From: Lachnospiraceae bacterium EP-SM-12S-S03
Lineage (GTDB): Bacteria > Bacillota > Clostridia > Lachnospirales > Lachnospiraceae
Reading direction: 5' to 3'
Assembly (NCBI GenBank): GCA_020540725.1
Contig: JAJBSL010000023.1
Span: 1 to 36,343 of the forward strand
Length of the DNA stretch: 36,343 nt
Every line of letters begins with the position of its first letter. Positions within the stretch are counted from its first letter, which is position 1. Shown here one piece after another: positions 7,488-15,454 of this stretch. The position numbers were made by a program, and so were the translations under genes. The notes beneath the pieces are model-generated. The model saw only the letters and a program-made list of their open reading frames with translations, had not been told where the DNA came from and made no database searches.

Positions 7488-9197
7488 CTAAGAAGCTCTT
7501 TCCGTTCCCATTTCATATACTGAATCTGCCAGATTCATAGTAGACTTTCTATGAGATACAAGCAAGACAGTCTTGTCCTGGCGTGATTCCTTCAACGATT
7601 TTAGAATGATTCCTTCATTGAGAGCATCTAAATTACTTGTAGGTTCATCCAGAAGTAGAAATGGTGCATCATGCAGAAATGCTCGGGCAATTCCAATTCT
7701 CTGTCGTTCTCCTCCGGAAAGTGTATCTCCAAGTTCACCTACCGGTGTGTCATACCCTTTCGGAAGAGAAAGAATGAATTCATGAATGGATGCCTTTTTT
7801 GCAGCCTCCACAATTTCTTCTCTTGTTGCTCCTGGTTTTCCTACTGCAATATTATTAGCTATACTGTCATGGAACAGATAAGTTTCCTGCGTTACATAAG
7901 CTTCCATATTTCGTAAGTTTTTCGTGTTGATCGACCGGATATCTTTTCCTGAAATCTGTATATTTCCGCTGTCCGCGTCCCAAAACCTCATTAGAAGTTT
8001 TAAAAATGTAGATTTACCGGAACCACTGGCTCCATGAATTCCTACGATTTTCCCCTTCGGAATTTCAATAGAATAATCCTTTAATATCTGCTCAGCTTCA
8101 CTATCATTCTCTCCACTGTAAGAAAAGTTCACATATGCAGCTTTTGCCCCTTCAAATGTTATGTTTTCTTGACCATCTACTTCCACAATCTGCGGTTTTT
8201 CTTCTAGAAGTGAAAGCACACGTTCTCCGCTTGCAAGAGTTTGATTCAGATTGTTAGATAGATTGGAAAGTGCAACTACCGGACCGAAGGATCCCATCAT
8301 GGCAATGACCGAGATGACCATCTGCTGATAACTTACCTTTCCACTCTGGTAATTCCAAATCATGAAAAAGAGCATTCCGAAAGAAAAAAGAAGAATACAT
8401 AAATTGGTCATAGAACTTTGCAGGGATTCATAGCGGTTTAGTTTCTGCTGAATCTTTCCAAGTTTCTCAGAACGTTCGCTCATCCTTTTCAACCGCTCGT
8501 TTCCTTGTCCATATTGAATCGTCTCATCCAATCCTCGCATAGAATCTAAAATAAAACTATTCAGATCTCCGAACCCGTTTCGAAATTCCATTCCCGCAGA
8601 AGCTCCTCTTTTTCCATTCCAAAGAGGAAGTATTACACCGATTACCAGATAGGCAAGAAGCGCAAGCGCTCCTGCCGCCGGATACTGTATTCCAATGAAC
8701 CATACCATAAATCCGGAAGTCAGAACTGCAATCGCAATCGGTGAAATCGTATGTGCATAGAACACTTCCAGAAGTTCAATATCTGATGTGATCACAGAGA
8801 TTAAATTCCCTTTTTCTCTCCCTTCCAGCTTTGCCGGGCACAATTTCCTCAAAATCGCAAATACTTTATGCCGAATAAGCGCAAGCAGTTTGAATGCAAT
8901 AAAGTGATTACAATACTGTTCCTGATAATGAAAGATTCCTCTGAATACTGCAAGTAAAATAAGCACCGTAAGAAGATTGCCGGTAGAATCAAAAAATCCA
9001 CTCATAAATCCCGTTGCTGTCATACCTGTTACTTTTTCGAGAATTCCATATCCTGCAAAAATTGTCAGAAATATGGCGCACAGATATCCGACCACACCAA
9101 ACAAAATAGCAAGACACATAACCGGAAGCAGCGGTTTTACAAGACCAATTAACTGCCCCATAATGACAATTCCTTTTCTTCTTTCTTTCATTTTCAT
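7488..9197 (-). CDS. ABC transporter half-molecule, CydC/IrtB-like (permease + ATPase)
   Basis: About 569 residues: a six-helix membrane domain in the first ~310, then an ATPase with Walker A GASGSGKST near 385, signature LSGGERQRIGIARAF near 490, and Walker B FLLLDEPTSNLD. It pairs with the upstream gene as a heterodimer. Such pairs include CydDC (heme/thiol traffic) and IrtAB (siderophore uptake). The iron-box-like operators upstream favour an iron, heme or siderophore substrate, but this is inference. ATG at 9197 overlaps the TGA of the upstream gene (ATGA), which fits better than the GTG two codons earlier. Confidence 0.85.
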   Translation of the reverse strand: MKMKERRKGIVIMGQLIGLVKPLLPVMCLAILFGVVGYLCAIFLTIFAGYGILEKVTGMTATGFMSGFFDSTGNLLTVLILLAVFRGIFHYQEQYCNHFIAFKLLALIRHKVFAILRKLCPAKLEGREKGNLISVITSDIELLEVFYAHTISPIAIAVLTSGFMVWFIGIQYPAAGALALLAYLVIGVILPLWNGKRGASAGMEFRNGFGDLNSFILDSMRGLDETIQYGQGNERLKRMSERSEKLGKIQQKLNRYESLQSSMTNLCILLFSFGMLFFMIWNYQSGKVSYQQMVISVIAMMGSFGPVVALSNLSNNLNQTLASGERVLSLLEEKPQIVEVDGQENITFEGAKAAYVNFSYSGENDSEAEQILKDYSIEIPKGKIVGIHGASGSGKSTFLKLLMRFWDADSGNIQISGKDIRSINTKNLRNMEAYVTQETYLFHDSIANNIAVGKPGATREEIVEAAKKASIHEFILSLPKGYDTPVGELGDTLSGGERQRIGIARAFLHDAPFLLLDEPTSNLDALNEGIILKSLKESRQDKTVLLVSHRKSTMNLADSVYEMGTERAS

Positions 9198-10945
9198 GAA
9201 CACATCACCACCTTTTCTGCCTCTTTTCCGTAAGATTCTAACTCACTTTGATAAGAATAAAGTTTACTGTATGCACCATTTTGAGCCAGCAGTTCCTCGT
9301 GATTTCCAGCTTCTTTGATATTCCCGTCTTCCAGCAGATAGATTCTGTCAGATGCCACCACATTTGCCAATCTGTGTGAAATGAGAATGACGGTTTTCAT
9401 CTGCGCAAGTTCTCGTATAATTTCCATGATCATTTCTTCACTTTCCACATCTATATTGGAAGTTGCTTCATCGAAAATATATACCGGGGAGTCATGAAGA
9501 AGAGCTCTTGCAAGCGCCAGTCTCTGGCATTGTCCTCCCGAAAAATTGCTTCCTTTCTCACTTACTTTTGTTTCCAATCCTTGTTGATTTTTCAAAAATT
9601 CTTTTAGGTTCACTTTTTCAAGTTTTTCCCATAGCCCCATATCTGTTGCTTCTGGGTTTCCCATACACAGATTCTCTCGTACTGTGCCTTTAAACAGGTA
9701 ACTATTATGGCTTACTAACGTAATCTTTTTCATCAGACTTTCTTCTGTAACATCCCGTAACTCTTTTCCCTGTACCGCAACATTGCCGCCATACCCTTTA
9801 TTACGTCCCATGAGAATCCCGGCAATGGTACTTTTCCCGCATCCGGATACTCCTACAAGTGAAGTGAAACTGCCTGCAGGAAAATTCATCGAGATGCCAT
9901 TCAGGATGCTTCTGCCTTTTTCATAGGCAAAAGTTACATTTGTAAACTGTAAATCCACCGGCTCATTTTCTAAGACAATTTCCTTTTCTTTCTGCTCCGG
10001 CAAATCCAGAAGCGCAAAGATTTTATCACTTGCTGCCATTCCATTCATTGCAATATGAAAAAAGGAACCGAGAAGACGAAGCGGAATGAAAAACTCAGAT
10101 GCAAGCAGAATAATCATGAAGGCGCCTCCGAGACTTACATTCCCTTTCATATATTCCGAAAATGTAACTCCCATTCCGACTGCTGCACCGCCATATGCAA
10201 TGATGTCCATTACACTGGTAGAATTGAGCTGCATAGTCAGCACTTTCATTGTAATCTGGCGAAATCTTTGAGACTCCCGATCCATCTCCACCGCCTTTTC
10301 CTCATCTGCCTGATAAATTTTCAGTGTGGTAAGTCCTTGCAGATTTTCCAGAAAAGAATCACCCAGTTCTCCATAGATTCCCCAATATTTATGCAGTAAC
10401 TTTTTTGCAAATTTCTGAACTGCTACAATAGAAACCGGAATTAACGGCACGCAAACAAGAAGAATAATACTTGCCTTAGCATTGACCGGCAATAATATCA
10501 AAAACAGCGTGATTGGCGCAAGCAAACTGTAAAATAATTGCGATAAATATTTACCAAAATAAATTTCTAACTGCTCTACACCTTCTGCCGCCATCTGTAC
10601 CACCTGGGATGTAGTGATACTCTCCCGGTAAGAGGCTCCTAGTTTTAATAATTTCTCATATATTTTCTCACGTAAAATCCGTTTTACATCCACACTTGCC
10701 TTGAAAGATGTCAAAGATGCCTGACGGTCAAAGAAAAAGCGTAGCAGCATTGCTCCAAAGACCATTGCTCCCGAATTTATGATTTTTTCTTCTGTTAGTC
10801 CACCTCGCACCGCCATTTCAAGCAGTACAGAAATTGTATAGACCATCACTACCTGGCAGATCAGTGACAACCATTTCCAAAGCACTTGCAAAACGATATA
10901 TTTTTTTGCATGTGCTAATAGTTTGATCAATCTTGTCTTAATCAT
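9194..10945 (-). CDS. ABC transporter half-molecule, CydD/IrtA-like (permease + ATPase)
   Basis: A 583-residue fused membrane-ATPase protein. Helices occupy roughly residues 15-300. The ATPase has Walker A GVSGCGKST near 370, signature FSGGQCQRLALARAL and Walker B VYIFDEATSNID. It starts 5 bp after the YgbA-type gene, with the AGGGGG ribosome site overlapping that gene's end, and it overlaps the partner gene by 4 bp. Tight spacing argues for a heterodimer made from one mRNA. Substrate is not shown by the sequence; the regulatory context suggests an iron-related cargo. Confidence 0.85.
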   Translation of the reverse strand: MIKTRLIKLLAHAKKYIVLQVLWKWLSLICQVVMVYTISVLLEMAVRGGLTEEKIINSGAMVFGAMLLRFFFDRQASLTSFKASVDVKRILREKIYEKLLKLGASYRESITTSQVVQMAAEGVEQLEIYFGKYLSQLFYSLLAPITLFLILLPVNAKASIILLVCVPLIPVSIVAVQKFAKKLLHKYWGIYGELGDSFLENLQGLTTLKIYQADEEKAVEMDRESQRFRQITMKVLTMQLNSTSVMDIIAYGGAAVGMGVTFSEYMKGNVSLGGAFMIILLASEFFIPLRLLGSFFHIAMNGMAASDKIFALLDLPEQKEKEIVLENEPVDLQFTNVTFAYEKGRSILNGISMNFPAGSFTSLVGVSGCGKSTIAGILMGRNKGYGGNVAVQGKELRDVTEESLMKKITLVSHNSYLFKGTVRENLCMGNPEATDMGLWEKLEKVNLKEFLKNQQGLETKVSEKGSNFSGGQCQRLALARALLHDSPVYIFDEATSNIDVESEEMIMEIIRELAQMKTVILISHRLANVVASDRIYLLEDGNIKEAGNHEELLAQNGAYSKLYSYQSELESYGKEAEKVVMCS

Positions 10946-10950
10946 AGATA

Positions 10951-11331
10951 TTACTTTCCCCCTTTATCTGAAGATTTTATTCTGTATTTTTCGATTCCGG
11001 AACTTATGAGATGCCAGATTACCATTCCCGGATGCACAAGCAGCATTCTTGGACCGGAAAATCGCATGACTTCCCGAATCTTCTCCCGCATATCGGTTTT
11101 GTAACAGTGCACTTTGCAATTAGAACAAAAAGTTTTCCTTTCCATAAAAGGACAATGCTTACTTCTTGCCTGGGCATAATCACAGAGAGTTTTACACTCC
11201 TCGCAAAGTTTTTCTCCTCTTTCTCTCCCGTGTTTTTTGCTGCAATAAAGAGCGATCATTTCTTCCACAACTTTTTGTTCTTTCTTTCTCTTTCTCTCTG
11301 TTTTTTCTATTTCTGCAATCCGGTTTCCCAT
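10951..11331 (-). CDS. YgbA-type 'nitrous oxide-stimulated promoter' family protein
   Basis: A 126-residue cysteine-rich protein. After a basic helix (EIEKTERKRKKEQKVVEEM) come CSKKHG, LCEECKTLCDYA, CPFMERKTFCSNCKVHCYK and a hydrophobic MRFSGPRMLLVHP block, all typical of the YgbA_NO family (PF11756). The clustered cysteines suggest a metal or Fe-S site. In enterobacteria the homologue belongs to the nitric-oxide-responsive NsrR regulon. I place the start at ATG 11331 with AGAGGAAG upstream; a longer in-frame extension lacks a ribosome site. It overlaps the end of the DUF454 gene by 25 bp, indicating coupled translation. Confidence 0.82.
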   Translation of the reverse strand: MGNRIAEIEKTERKRKKEQKVVEEMIALYCSKKHGRERGEKLCEECKTLCDYAQARSKHCPFMERKTFCSNCKVHCYKTDMREKIREVMRFSGPRMLLVHPGMVIWHLISSGIEKYRIKSSDKGGK

Positions 11332-11717
11332 TGTTCTTCCTCTTTTTCCGTCTTGATTTTTATAAAGAAATACCAAAGATGCCATATCCATACAACTCCA
11401 AGACACACTCTTCCAATCGGTACATTTTTCATACAGAGAAAACTAATCGCCATCATCGCCGTCACCATACCGGAGATACGAAGCTTTGTTCCCATGTGCA
11501 TTGCTTTGTTTTTGACAAAACCTGCCAAATGTTTTTCATAAAGTTTTGTTCCAAGAAACCAATTATGAAGTTTTTCTGAGCTTTTCGCAAAGCAAAATAC
11601 CGTTGCCATATAAAAGGGAACTGTAGGGAGTATCGGAAGTACAACTCCCACTGTTCCTGCCGCAAGGCACAAGAATCCAAGCAAAATCCAGATAAATCGA
11701 ATTGGCGTTTTTTTCAT
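11307..11717 (-). CDS. DUF454 (YbaN-like) inner membrane protein
   Basis: This 136-residue protein has three or four predicted membrane helices (about 8-27, 30-46, 82-96, 102-118). The family pattern is GFLCLAAGTVGVVLPILPTVPFYMATVFCFAKSS followed by LHNWFL, given here as pieces of the DUF454 signature. Its biochemical role is unknown. It is the first gene of the operon with the YgbA-type protein and the ABC pair, and its promoter carries two iron-box-like sites. DUF454 genes are often found with iron or heme functions, from general familiarity. Confidence 0.82.
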   Translation of the reverse strand: MKKTPIRFIWILLGFLCLAAGTVGVVLPILPTVPFYMATVFCFAKSSEKLHNWFLGTKLYEKHLAGFVKNKAMHMGTKLRISGMVTAMMAISFLCMKNVPIGRVCLGVVWIWHLWYFFIKIKTEKEEEQWETGLQK

Positions 11718-12135: not shown

Positions 12136-14769
12136 CTACTTCAAGTTTCTTCTTCCATGACGCACATCATCCATAAGTTCTGCCATATCTTCCGAAAGAG
12201 CATCGAAAAGATACTGGCTGCTCTTCTTTGTCTTGTTCAGATGTTCTTCACGGATTTCCTGCTGTACCGCTATCACTTCTTCTTGCAAGCCTTTGGCAGA
12301 TAAACGATTCGCCCCGGCTCCCATAATGATTTTCTGTTCCATTCCATCTGATGTAGCAACCGTCACTTTATATTTTTGTGCCATTTCATGTACCGCTTTT
12401 TCAATATACTGGTCCGCCGTCTCTGCTTCTTTTGTGTACACGACATGGATATTATGGTATTTCATAACTTCGCCACCATACCCAGGTACCTTATACGCAT
12501 CAAACACAAGGATTAACGTGCATTTTCGATAACCTTGGTAATTGCACAAAATGTCCATCAGCTTATTTCTTGCTCCTTCAATATTTACTTTTGCAAGTTC
12601 CTTTAAGTCGTCCCATGCAAAAATAATATTGTAACCGTCTACAAGAAGATATTCTGTTTCAGAACTTTCCGTTTTTCTTTTTGTATTTCGGTATGTTGTA
12701 CCAAACTCTACTTTATTTTGTCTGTTAAACCGGTTCCTTTCCCGTTTGATTGGTCCGTACGTTCGTTCAAATATTTCATTTAACTCTTTTTCACTGATAA
12801 ATTCCGGCATGGAAGAAACATACATACTTTTTTCTTCTTTCTTTTTCAGTGGAGATTCTGTATGCATATGTGCATCCACCTCATCCCAACTCACATGATA
12901 CCCTGCACCATGAGAACAAAATACAGAACCTGTAGGATTTTCTAAATCTGCTTCTGCATCATATCCAATGGTTTCAATCACTTCTTCCGTATTATGGCAA
13001 GGCTCATATCCTTTCAATTGCAAAAACAAACGGCCATGTCCTTTCGTGTAAGAAACAACTTCCGTCTGATAATCTCGCATTGTCACGACCGGAGCCGTTC
13101 CTTTTAATATGGCCATCTCTCCCTCCATCTCAGGTGAAGTAAATTCTGCCTTCATTCGTTGCAAATCAGACATAGCTCGTCCCAACATCTCTGTCGGAAT
13201 TTCCAACTGATAGTCATAAACCGGTTCCAGAAGAAGACTTTTCGCTTTACGCAGCCCCTGACGGACTGCACGGTATGTTGCCTGACGGAAATCTCCACCT
13301 TCTGTATGTTTCTGATGCGCGCGACCCATGATCAACGTGATCTTCATGTCTGTGGTTTCTGCCCCGGTCAGTACACCTTTATGCTCTTTCTCTCCCAAAT
13401 GCGTCAAAATCAACCGTTGCCAATTTCGATCCAATACATCTTCGCTGCAATCTGCTGCGAACTGCATACCGCTTCCTCTTTCTCCAGGTTCTAAAAGAAG
13501 GCGTACTTCTGCATAATGCCTAAGTGGTTCAAAATGCCCGCATCCTTCTACTGCTTCCCGGATGGTTTCTTTGTATACGATGCTTCCCGTTCCAAATTCC
13601 ACATCCACATGAAAACGTTCTGCAATCTGATTTTTCAGAATCTCAATCTGTACTTCGCCCATCACCTGTGCATGAATTTCTCCGGAAACTTCATCCCAAA
13701 GAATATGCAACTGAGGTTCCTCTTCTTCCAACTGTTTCAAATTCAAGTACATCGTATGAACATCTGTCTCTTCCGGTATCTTTACCTGATACGTTAAAAC
13801 CGGTTCTAAAACCGGATGTTCCGAAGCCTTTTCAATTCCAAACCCTTCTCCTGAATAGGTACTGTCAAGTCCTGTGATTGCACAGATGCTTCCTGCACAC
13901 GCTTCCTGCTGCAGTTCAAAGCCCGCTCCCGAGTACACGCGGATCTGATCTGCCTTTTCTTCTCCCTTCAGAACAGTTTTCACCTTCAGACTTCCGCCTG
14001 TAATCTTCATATGAGTAAGACGCTGTCCTTGCTTATCTCTCGAAATCTTATAAACTTTCGCACCAAATTCTTCCGGATACTCTTTACACTCTGTATATTG
14101 ATCAAATCCATATAAAAACTCTTCCACCCCAGTCATCTTTAAAGCAGAACCGAAAAAGCATGGGAAAATCTGTCTTCTTACAATTAACGTACGTATGTCG
14201 TTCTCCGTCGGCATCTCCCCTTCAAAATAGCGTTCCAGAAGTTCTTCACTGCATACAGCAATATTTTCATAGAAAAGGTCTGTATCCTGCTCTTTTGCGA
14301 AATCTACACAACGCTCACCGAAACGTTTTTTTAATTCTGTAAGTACCGCCTCTTTCTCGGTTCCTGGCTGATCCATTTTATTGACAAATAAAAATACTGG
14401 AAGCTGATATTTTTTCAAAAGGCGCCATAACGTCTGTACATGTCCCTGTACACCGTCCGGCGCGCTGATCACAAGCACTGCATAATCCAATACTTGTAAC
14501 GTCCTCTCCATTTCTGCCGAAAAGTCTACGTGCCCTGGTGTGTCAAGAAGAGTAATATTTTTCCCATTCAGCACTATCTCTGCCTGTTTAGAAAAAATTG
14601 TAATACCTCTGGAACGCTCCAGTTCATAATTATCCAAAAAAGCATTCCCATGATCCACGCGCCCCAAAGACCGGATTTTGCCTGTTTTATATAATATACT
14701 TTCTGCGAGAGTTGTTTTGCCTGCATCTACATGGGCAAGAATTCCCGCGGTTAATCGATTACTTTTCAT
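12136..14769 (-). CDS. TetM/EF-G-like ribosomal GTPase fused to a YacP/Rae1-type NYN endoribonuclease
   Basis: This 877-residue protein has two parts. Residues 1-~650 are a translation-factor GTPase of the ribosomal-protection (TetM/TetO) type: G1 AHVDAGKTT 12-20, G2 RGIT 54-57, G3 DTPGH 76-80, G4 NKMD 130-133, followed by EF-G-like domains II-V ending in YTKGHGRLFLQLKGYEPC. Residues 707-877 are an NYN domain like Bacillus YacP/Rae1, the nuclease that cuts mRNA in the ribosomal A site. Its putative catalytic residues are in VDGYN (710-714), FDA (756-758), ETAD (783-786) and TSD (806-808), all present. The linker (~655-700) is charged. The start overlaps the upstream SatD gene by 11 bp. It is not a usual tetracycline-resistance protein, which lacks the nuclease. 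I infer a ribosome-bound mRNA cleaving factor. Confidence 0.9.
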   Translation of the reverse strand: MKSNRLTAGILAHVDAGKTTLAESILYKTGKIRSLGRVDHGNAFLDNYELERSRGITIFSKQAEIVLNGKNITLLDTPGHVDFSAEMERTLQVLDYAVLVISAPDGVQGHVQTLWRLLKKYQLPVFLFVNKMDQPGTEKEAVLTELKKRFGERCVDFAKEQDTDLFYENIAVCSEELLERYFEGEMPTENDIRTLIVRRQIFPCFFGSALKMTGVEEFLYGFDQYTECKEYPEEFGAKVYKISRDKQGQRLTHMKITGGSLKVKTVLKGEEKADQIRVYSGAGFELQQEACAGSICAITGLDSTYSGEGFGIEKASEHPVLEPVLTYQVKIPEETDVHTMYLNLKQLEEEEPQLHILWDEVSGEIHAQVMGEVQIEILKNQIAERFHVDVEFGTGSIVYKETIREAVEGCGHFEPLRHYAEVRLLLEPGERGSGMQFAADCSEDVLDRNWQRLILTHLGEKEHKGVLTGAETTDMKITLIMGRAHQKHTEGGDFRQATYRAVRQGLRKAKSLLLEPVYDYQLEIPTEMLGRAMSDLQRMKAEFTSPEMEGEMAILKGTAPVVTMRDYQTEVVSYTKGHGRLFLQLKGYEPCHNTEEVIETIGYDAEADLENPTGSVFCSHGAGYHVSWDEVDAHMHTESPLKKKEEKSMYVSSMPEFISEKELNEIFERTYGPIKRERNRFNRQNKVEFGTTYRNTKRKTESSETEYLLVDGYNIIFAWDDLKELAKVNIEGARNKLMDILCNYQGYRKCTLILVFDAYKVPGYGGEVMKYHNIHVVYTKEAETADQYIEKAVHEMAQKYKVTVATSDGMEQKIIMGAGANRLSAKGLQEEVIAVQQEIREEHLNKTKKSSQYLFDALSEDMAELMDDVRHGRRNLK

Positions 14770-15454
14770 AGTTTTTATCCCCTATTTCTGCGAATACACG
14801 GTTCAGCGTCTGAACAGCTTCTGCATATGTATAGTATTTTCCTGCTGCCAGACTTTTTTGAACTGTAGATTGTGTAATGCCAAGACGTTTTGCAACGCCA
14901 GCCTGCTTCTCTTTATATTGCATTATATTATATATGATTTCCCGTTGTCTGTCACTCCAGGAATATTCGATCGTTGTAAGCAGTGACAAGATGGTATTCA
15001 CAAGACTTAACTTTTCGTTTTCATTTCCATCCCCGGCTGCCTTGATACGCACATCTGTAATTCCTGTTTGTTTCCGGTTGTCCAAAGTTCTCAAATATTC
15101 CAACGCTTCTCTTGCTTTCTCGCATCCCGGACCTTTGGCAGTGATAGACAAATCCGACAAACTTTCTTCTTCAATCTCTCCGATTCCTACTCCGAAACGC
15201 ACCTTGAGCGGATACATCTGATTTTTAATATCCAGAAGAATCGATAGAATATCTTTACCTTGACATAAGACGCCTTGAAATTCGTTATTGATGGTTTCCA
15301 TAAATTTTGCCGACATATTTTCTCCGTACCGCCTGTTCACATTTTGCAGTACATGGTCTAGCTTCTTGATATGTTCCATCTTCCCGGCTTCTGCTTTGTC
15401 TGTTATTTCTCCTACAATCGTAATATATGGTTTTGAAAAAAAGAAGAAAAACAT
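14759..15454 (-). CDS. SatD-family protein with C-terminal helix-turn-helix
   Basis: A 231-residue SatD-family protein. The N-terminal part has a palm-like pattern: PYITIVGEITD at 9-19, NNEFQGVL at 56-63 in the place where relatives often have GDEFQ, and VRFGVGIGEI near 85-94. The C-terminal part (about 167-215) has a helix-turn-helix, GVAKRLGITQSTVQKSL. The start has GGAGG 8 bp upstream and a poly-T run encoding five Phe right after the Met. It overlaps the GTPase-NYN gene by 11 bp, so the proteins are made together. It may bind the palindrome in its own promoter. SatD was named in a streptococcal acid-tolerance operon; its biochemical role is not established to my knowledge. Confidence 0.78.
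   Translation of the reverse strand: MFFFFFSKPYITIVGEITDKAEAGKMEHIKKLDHVLQNVNRRYGENMSAKFMETINNEFQGVLCQGKDILSILLDIKNQMYPLKVRFGVGIGEIEEESLSDLSITAKGPGCEKAREALEYLRTLDNRKQTGITDVRIKAAGDGNENEKLSLVNTILSLLTTIEYSWSDRQREIIYNIMQYKEKQAGVAKRLGITQSTVQKSLAAGKYYTYAEAVQTLNRVFAEIGDKNYEK

Follow-up and report, generated by a model that had tools for sequence, protein, structure and literature searches.

A Translational GTPase Fused to a Rae1-Type Nuclease

The stretch of DNA analyzed here (the window, 36,343 nucleotides, positions 1 to 36,343 of contig JAJBSL010000023.1 of Lachnospiraceae bacterium EP-SM-12S-S03) contains a gene in which an EF-G/Tet-like GTPase is fused to a nuclease domain of the Rae1/YacP NYN family. 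An earlier note, made from the sequence alone, had proposed such a fusion of a TetM/EF-G-like GTPase with a Rae1 NYN domain, and its coordinates were found to be exact for a single open reading frame (ORF) of 877 amino acids; the gene lies on the minus strand, which the note did not give (table 1).

The modules were identified by Pfam and by matches to the PDB. The GTP_EFTU (E = 3.7e-51), EFG_III, EFG_IV, and EFG_C matches each scored above their own cutoff, and the NYN_YacP match (E = 1.5e-53) reached 181.7 bits against a cutoff of 24.6. The EF-G_D2 match stayed below its own cutoff (22.3 vs. 27 bits) and a fold alignment to EF-G covers residues 1–607, domain II included; a further match to MMR_HSR1 overlaps that of GTP_EFTU. 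TetO, TetM, and EF-G chains were matched over residues ~7–591 and YacP (5mq8/5mq9) over the NYN domain, while the fold comparison was filled by EF-G-type chains, with no entries of its own for the NYN part. The intact motifs G1 (AHVDAGKTT), G2 (T57), G3 (DTPGH), G4 (NKMD), and G5 (SAL), together with domains I–V (domain II by fold), place the N-terminal part in the translational GTPase superfamily, and the NYN_YacP match with its conserved acidic residues places the C-terminal part in the Rae1/YacP family.

The earlier note had named, as grounds against its proposal, an NYN domain that is absent or mutated in all homologues. Based on precomputed Pfam assignments, the domain is present in 119 of 120 listed homologues (7983 were scored), the exception being P0008, and 48 out of 146 genomes of one bacterial order carry the fusion in one long frame. 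An assembly artefact or a chance reading frame is ruled out by this recurrence in many independent genomes.

Table 1. Features of the fusion gene and its neighborhood (positions in the window; residues of the 877-amino acid protein)
Feature	Position	Strand	Basis and remarks
GTPase-NYN fusion gene	12136..14769	-	ORF list; 877 amino acids; runs from an ATG at 14769 to the stop codon at 12136
Domain I, GTPase (GTP_EFTU, residues 6-226)	14092..14754	-	Pfam
Domain II (residues 236-306)	13852..14064	-	Pfam (below family cutoff) and fold alignment
Domain III (EFG_III, residues 322-393)	13591..13806	-	Pfam
Domain IV (EFG_IV, residues 396-510)	13240..13584	-	Pfam
Domain IV loop III, residues 482-495 (GRAHQKHTEGGDFR)	13285..13326	-	Alignments; unlike TetO and EF-G
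Domain V (EFG_C, residues 513-593)	12991..13233	-	Pfam
Post-domain-V element, residues 588-636 (C591, C618, H620, H636)	12862..13008	-	Conservation
Linker, residues 637-706	12652..12861	-	Mostly predicted disordered (pLDDT)
Helix-like linker motif, residues 660-676 (ELNEIFERTYG region)	12742..12792	-	Pattern and predicted model
NYN_YacP/Rae1 nuclease domain, residues 708-870 (D711, N714, D757, D786, D808)	12160..12648	-	Pfam, YacP alignment, conservation
SatD-family ORF	14759..15454	-	Pfam PF16264
ABC exporter-type gene	7488..9203	-	Overlaps the next gene
ABC exporter-type gene	9194..10945	-	
YgbA_NO family gene	10951..11406	-	
DUF454 family gene	11307..11717	-	

Conservation of Both Active Centers

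Conservation was assessed in 99 aligned fused proteins, with L032 (835 amino acids, at a contig end) and L040 (split frame) kept outside the set. The thirteen G-motif residues tested (D15, G17, K18, T19, T20, T57, D76, G79, H80, N130, K131, D133, and A209) are each present in 99/99 proteins, in line with the claim of the earlier note that all G motifs are intact. The same is true of nine residues of the NYN domain (D711, N714, D757, T784, D786, E790, T806, S807, and D808), among them the four acidic residues (D711, D757, D786, and D808) that the note had also called intact, whereas position 783 carries E in 82 proteins and Q in the other 17. The catalytic role of particular NYN residues is presumed here from general knowledge of NYN and PIN enzymes. 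Given this invariance, both active centers look selected for across the fusion family.

Distribution of Fused and Standalone Rae1

A tblastn scan of genome contigs identified 488 relatives, some of them perhaps unfused, and 43 of the best 80, which were kept, carry Lachnospiraceae labels. Of the genomes behind these 80 loci, 26 were tested, and each contains exactly one NYN_YacP domain, in a frame of 874–960 amino acids. The occurrence of the domain was then counted in an order sample, the 146 genomes of the order to which Drancourtella massiliensis (G004, genome of locus L007) belongs, and in a phylum sample of 199 genomes. Within the order, 123 genomes contain an NYN_YacP domain and 23 do not; 48 of the frames are fused (>=850 amino acids), 74 are standalone (<=300 amino acids), and a single 523-amino acid frame (G065) was counted as neither. 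The phylum sample contains 12 fused genomes (including G004 and G031, which are common to both samples) and 96 standalone ones, with one more match, in a 714-amino acid frame, under the cutoff. The search for the same architecture elsewhere that the earlier note had recommended was thereby successful.

Not a single genome in the two samples contains both an intact fusion and an intact standalone Rae1, and this partition within one order (48 fused, 74 standalone, none with both intact) is new here. Small second NYN fragments of 26, 63, and 17 model positions in G047, G076, and G140, respectively, were not counted as intact; that of G140 lies at a contig end and its state cannot be told. In-frame stops within the match are present in five fused genomes of the order sample (G161, G160, G031, G088, and G067), in G240 of the phylum sample, and in G022 (L051), where it is simply the terminal codon of the gene. 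Two loci carry a frame split over two ORFs (L040, 2421–5276; L042, 5953–8884), reflecting either sequencing error or decay. Overall, gut Lachnospiraceae-type bacteria often carry Rae1 as the tail of an EF-G-like GTPase.

Origin of the Fusion and the Vacated rae1 Slot

To trace the GTPase with or without an NYN domain, a 66-residue element behind domain V served as a tag. The tag is present in 61 out of 146 genomes of the order sample, 48 times in fused frames and 13 times in frames of 454–687 amino acids that lack NYN, and in 13 out of 199 genomes of the phylum sample (12 fused, 1 unfused). In 11 of the 13 order-sample genomes with an unfused GTPase, a standalone Rae1 is encoded on a different contig, and in G038 and G110 there is none. 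The unfused sister GTPases (~650 amino acids) show 40–51% identity to the GTPase of the window (62% for L134, which is cut by a contig end), and domain IV loop III is the same in most of them but deviates in L122 and L132.

Phylogenetic trees were built from 61 of the 99 fused proteins for the NYN domain and from 36 of those 61 for the GTPase (L157 was omitted). L134 of G110, which runs off the contig end and is possibly a cut fusion, and L123 of G050, which is split into two frames, were left outside the tree. In the GTPase tree, a quick tree under a simple model, the 36 fused proteins form one clade (support 99) that adjoins 12 unfused GTPases and is separate from the EF-G rows. The NYN tree splits the 61 fused from 20 standalone domains by one branch, with a support of only 72. 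A single fusion event apparently fits both trees.

The nearest standalone Rae1 (L105 in genome G119) lies outside the ancestral gene cluster, beside an MntP-type gene. The order rlmB, rae1, sigma factor gene is found in 18 out of 20 standalone loci, and 13 of the 18 show cysS and mrnC as well; the other two are L103 (rae1 and sigma gene only) and the relocated copy of L105. The families of the cluster were named by Pfam in two example loci (L107 in full, L115 in part), and the genes preceding rae1 are mrnC (RNase III domain) and rlmB (SpoU rRNA methylase). The mrnC region was inspected in 11 fusion genomes. In nine of them (G144, G004, G001, G054, G142, G076, G157, G325, and G295) the sigma gene comes next after rlmB, without an intervening rae1; G052 has an unrelated 865-amino acid frame at this position, and in G097 rlmB is present and the sigma gene is not in view. 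The native slot is hence empty in 10 of the 11, with rlmB and the sigma gene kept; G119, with its relocated Rae1, likewise lacks rae1 between the ancestral cluster genes. Because the ancestral slot is empty in fusion genomes, gene order indicates that the fusion stands in for the native Rae1. Together with the one change on the weakly supported NYN tree, the empty cysS-mrnC-rlmB-rae1-sigma slot identifies the fused domain as an ortholog of Bacillus subtilis Rae1/YacP, in line with the Rae1-type domain named in the earlier note.

The Rae1 Part after Fusion

The fused domain matches B. subtilis Rae1/YacP (5mq8, 5mq9) over its full length with the acidic residues in the same places, but forms the C-terminal domain of a GTPase where the B. 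subtilis protein is free. A comparison of 61 fused and 20 standalone domains revealed that the core columns are retained in both. Outside the core, a basic residue at the position of R822 is found in 20/20 standalone and 37/61 fused domains (2 changes on the tree) and at the position of R870 in 19/20 and 30/61 (13 changes), and the mean net charge shifts from −0.8 to −6.0, making the fused domain more acidic on average. In the order sample the NYN match ends before model position 160 in 30 out of 48 fused but 0 out of 74 standalone proteins (fused values recounted, standalone values taken by eye), a C-terminal loss seen in many fused lineages. In the alignment, R870 falls at position 165 of YacP, beside R166; in B. 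subtilis rae1, an R166P change and a deletion of nucleotides 469–473 were recovered as efp suppressors and interpreted as loss-of-function mutations (PMC6613710). Put simply, a surface that free Rae1 needs would no longer be needed once the GTPase carries the nuclease.

Relation to Tet Proteins and EF-G

The domain order I–V is that of Tet(M)/Tet(O), TetO is the best PDB match by sequence, and tet_protect (NF012153) is the best NCBIfam match, but its 426.3 bits fall below the curated cutoff of 775; the EF-G equivalog TIGR00484 likewise stays below its cutoff (318.6 vs. 659.4 bits). No protein reached the tet_protect cutoff in any of 12 genomes searched, five of them fusion carriers, and in these five EF-G-like proteins coexist with the fusion. 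Tet-type domain IV loops are described as dislodging tetracycline (PMC4342817, in part). Loop III of domain IV is nearly invariant in the 99 fusions (GRAHxKHTEGGDFR) and reads AHQKHTEGGDFR in the window protein compared with YYSPVSTPADFR in TetO, so that the domain IV tip is not of the Tet type; it also lacks the EF-G pattern, which is SYHDVDSSEMAF or SYHPVDSSEMAF in the aligned EF-G sequences. The fusion further differs from Tet(M)/Tet(O) in its post-domain-V element and additional NYN domain, and from EF-G in its separate clade and shorter G-domain insert.

A homologue, P0037, is named as a member of the TetM/TetW/TetO/TetS family by a public source. Since the domain IV tip is unlike that of TetO or EF-G and the score is under the NCBI Tet cutoff, the "tetracycline resistance" label of such proteins is probably a misannotation, and the view of the earlier note that this is not a simple tetracycline-resistance protein is upheld. 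An acquired resistance gene is not favored either, with the score under the cutoff, a different loop III, and a gene that replaces a native one.

Another protein, L135 (genome G193), is a 659-amino acid Tet-like GTPase that scores 602 bits, also below the tet_protect cutoff, with a different loop III, GQHHVWHTHPLDFA; it perhaps represents a further uncharacterised Tet-like group.

The Post-Domain-V Element and the Linker

Four residues of the post-domain-V element, invariant in a set of 65 proteins, are also highly conserved in the 99 fusions (C591 96/99, C618 97/99, H620 90/99, and H636 99/99) and form a possible metal (zinc) site in the fused proteins. The element is partly kept in the unfused sister GTPases, where H620 is replaced by K in 11 of the 13 with a readable end. 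The spacer between H636 and D711 varies from 67 to 150 residues. In the predicted model, the predicted local distance difference test score (pLDDT) of the linker is <50 at residues 646–659 and 671–702, and a helix is formed at residues 660–671. A motif in this region, E[LIVM]xx[ILV][FLMI]x[RKQEHS][TS][YFLM], is shared by 84 of the 99 fusions, under a pattern written after the sequences were seen, and could be a docking peptide. Besides YacP, a search of the linker and NYN domain against the PDB (E up to 10) returned only five weak matches (E = 0.22–1.3). P0008 is a 664-amino acid, 99% identical variant that ends inside the linker and lacks the NYN domain, reflecting either an interrupted gene or an incomplete gene prediction.

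Gene Neighborhood

The last 11 bases of the SatD-family ORF are shared with the start of the fusion gene, so the two may be translated together in the window, but among 100 loci of the fused set this neighbor recurs only in L001. The two overlapping ABC exporter-type genes follow the YgbA_NO and DUF454 family genes, which lie upstream in the same direction (group at 7488–11717). The non-transporter neighbors of the window recur only in L001 and partly in L002, L045, and L074. The commonest neighbor cluster (within 4 kb) is seen at just 9 out of 100 loci, a set that includes some with short flanks, and the neighborhood led nowhere as a clue to function.

Possible Functions of the Fusion

The architecture itself is already known, because clostridial proteins combining Tet and YacP-like NYN parts were described for ten species, with a suggested role in antibiotic resistance, by Atkinson 2015 (PMC4342817, in part), and the window protein fits that description. 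The statement of the earlier note that no such fusion had been characterized thus fails for the architecture and stands for function: no functional study was found in the open-licence literature, and Condon 2018 on Rae1 distribution, outside that scope, could mention the fusion.

Rae1 is described as an endonuclease able to cut mRNA in the ribosomal A site, and such cleavage as a way to clear space for tmRNA-SmpB (PMC12320835, PMC6613710, in part). S1025 is named among its substrates in PMC11780869. With slightly better than even confidence, we favor the reading that the fusion is a chromosomal translation factor that replaces free Rae1, an endonuclease targeted by its GTPase to A-site mRNA on stalled ribosomes. 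The GTPase module (domains I–V) would recognize ribosomes whose A site is vacant or stalled and deliver the flexibly tethered NYN endonuclease to them; domain IV would probe or clear the A site and then leave room for the nuclease, which would cut the A-site mRNA and feed tmRNA-type rescue and mRNA decay. For the fusion, we infer ribosome binding, mRNA cleavage, GTP gating, and the order of events alike. Domain IV of EF-G and TetM sits in the A site, which suggests that GTPase and NYN act in turn; by this analogy, they would more likely hand over sequentially than dock at the same time. The suggestion in the earlier note that the two dock near the same site agrees with the position of domain IV, but both are probably not there together.

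Several points weigh against this reading. With domain IV in place the A site would be blocked, and the GTPase and nuclease steps could then probably not be simultaneous there. B. subtilis Rae1 functions without a fused GTPase, and the neighboring genes hint at no pathway. The C-terminal changes of the Rae1 part could reflect relaxed constraint alone, with no transfer of targeting, R822 needing only two changes, and some standalone domains of the phylum sample also end early (G319 at 159, G286 at 158, and, at 135–141, five weak and divergent matches). Furthermore, the NYN domain of the window retains R822, R870, and the full tail, so that the C-terminal decay is a trend of the clade in many lineages and not a feature of the window copy. 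A more tentative proposal is GTPase-proofread mRNA surveillance, in which domain IV would first test a stalled ribosome for a vacant A site, GTP hydrolysis would withdraw domain IV, and the tethered Rae1 would then enter and cut the A-site codon; in this lineage ribosome selection would have passed from the Rae1 surface to the GTPase, a one-chain functional analogue of Hbs1/Dom34-plus-nuclease logic.

A serious rival, if a rather unlikely one, is that an EF-G-like GTPase and a Bacillus-like Rae1 act independently on one chain, with only co-expression or local concentration gained and no GTP gating. The long, variable, and mostly predicted disordered linker would suit such an arrangement, as would the 11 order-sample genomes with an unfused GTPase and a separate Rae1, but the fusions form a single clade, lack an intact second NYN in the sampled genomes, mostly share the linker motif, and show relaxed Rae1 C-terminal features that the standalone proteins of the order sample do not. 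Ribosome protection against tetracycline or other antibiotics by means of RNase activity, as proposed in PMC4342817 (in part), agrees with the best NCBIfam and PDB matches and with the public name of P0037. We consider it improbable, given the score of 426 bits against 775, the absence of any protein above that cutoff in the 12 genomes, the non-TetO loop III, and the single copy per genome in place of the native Rae1. Least probable is a nuclease for rRNA or tRNA processing that the GTPase loads onto the ribosome, after an older NYN-domain proposal cited in PMC4342817 (in part); the position of ancestral rae1 behind mrnC and rlmB speaks for it, and the A-site mRNA cleavage described for B. subtilis Rae1 (PMC12320835, PMC6613710) against it.

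If the GTPase controls the nuclease, the fusion would be a GTP-dependent mRNA endonuclease that acts on the ribosome and is frequent in gut Lachnospiraceae, and it would show how enzymes of the Rae1 type select their ribosomes. The sister genomes with an unfused GTPase and a free Rae1 offer natural before-and-after pairs, and the finding could correct the automatic tetracycline-resistance naming of such chromosomal genes, as seen for P0037.
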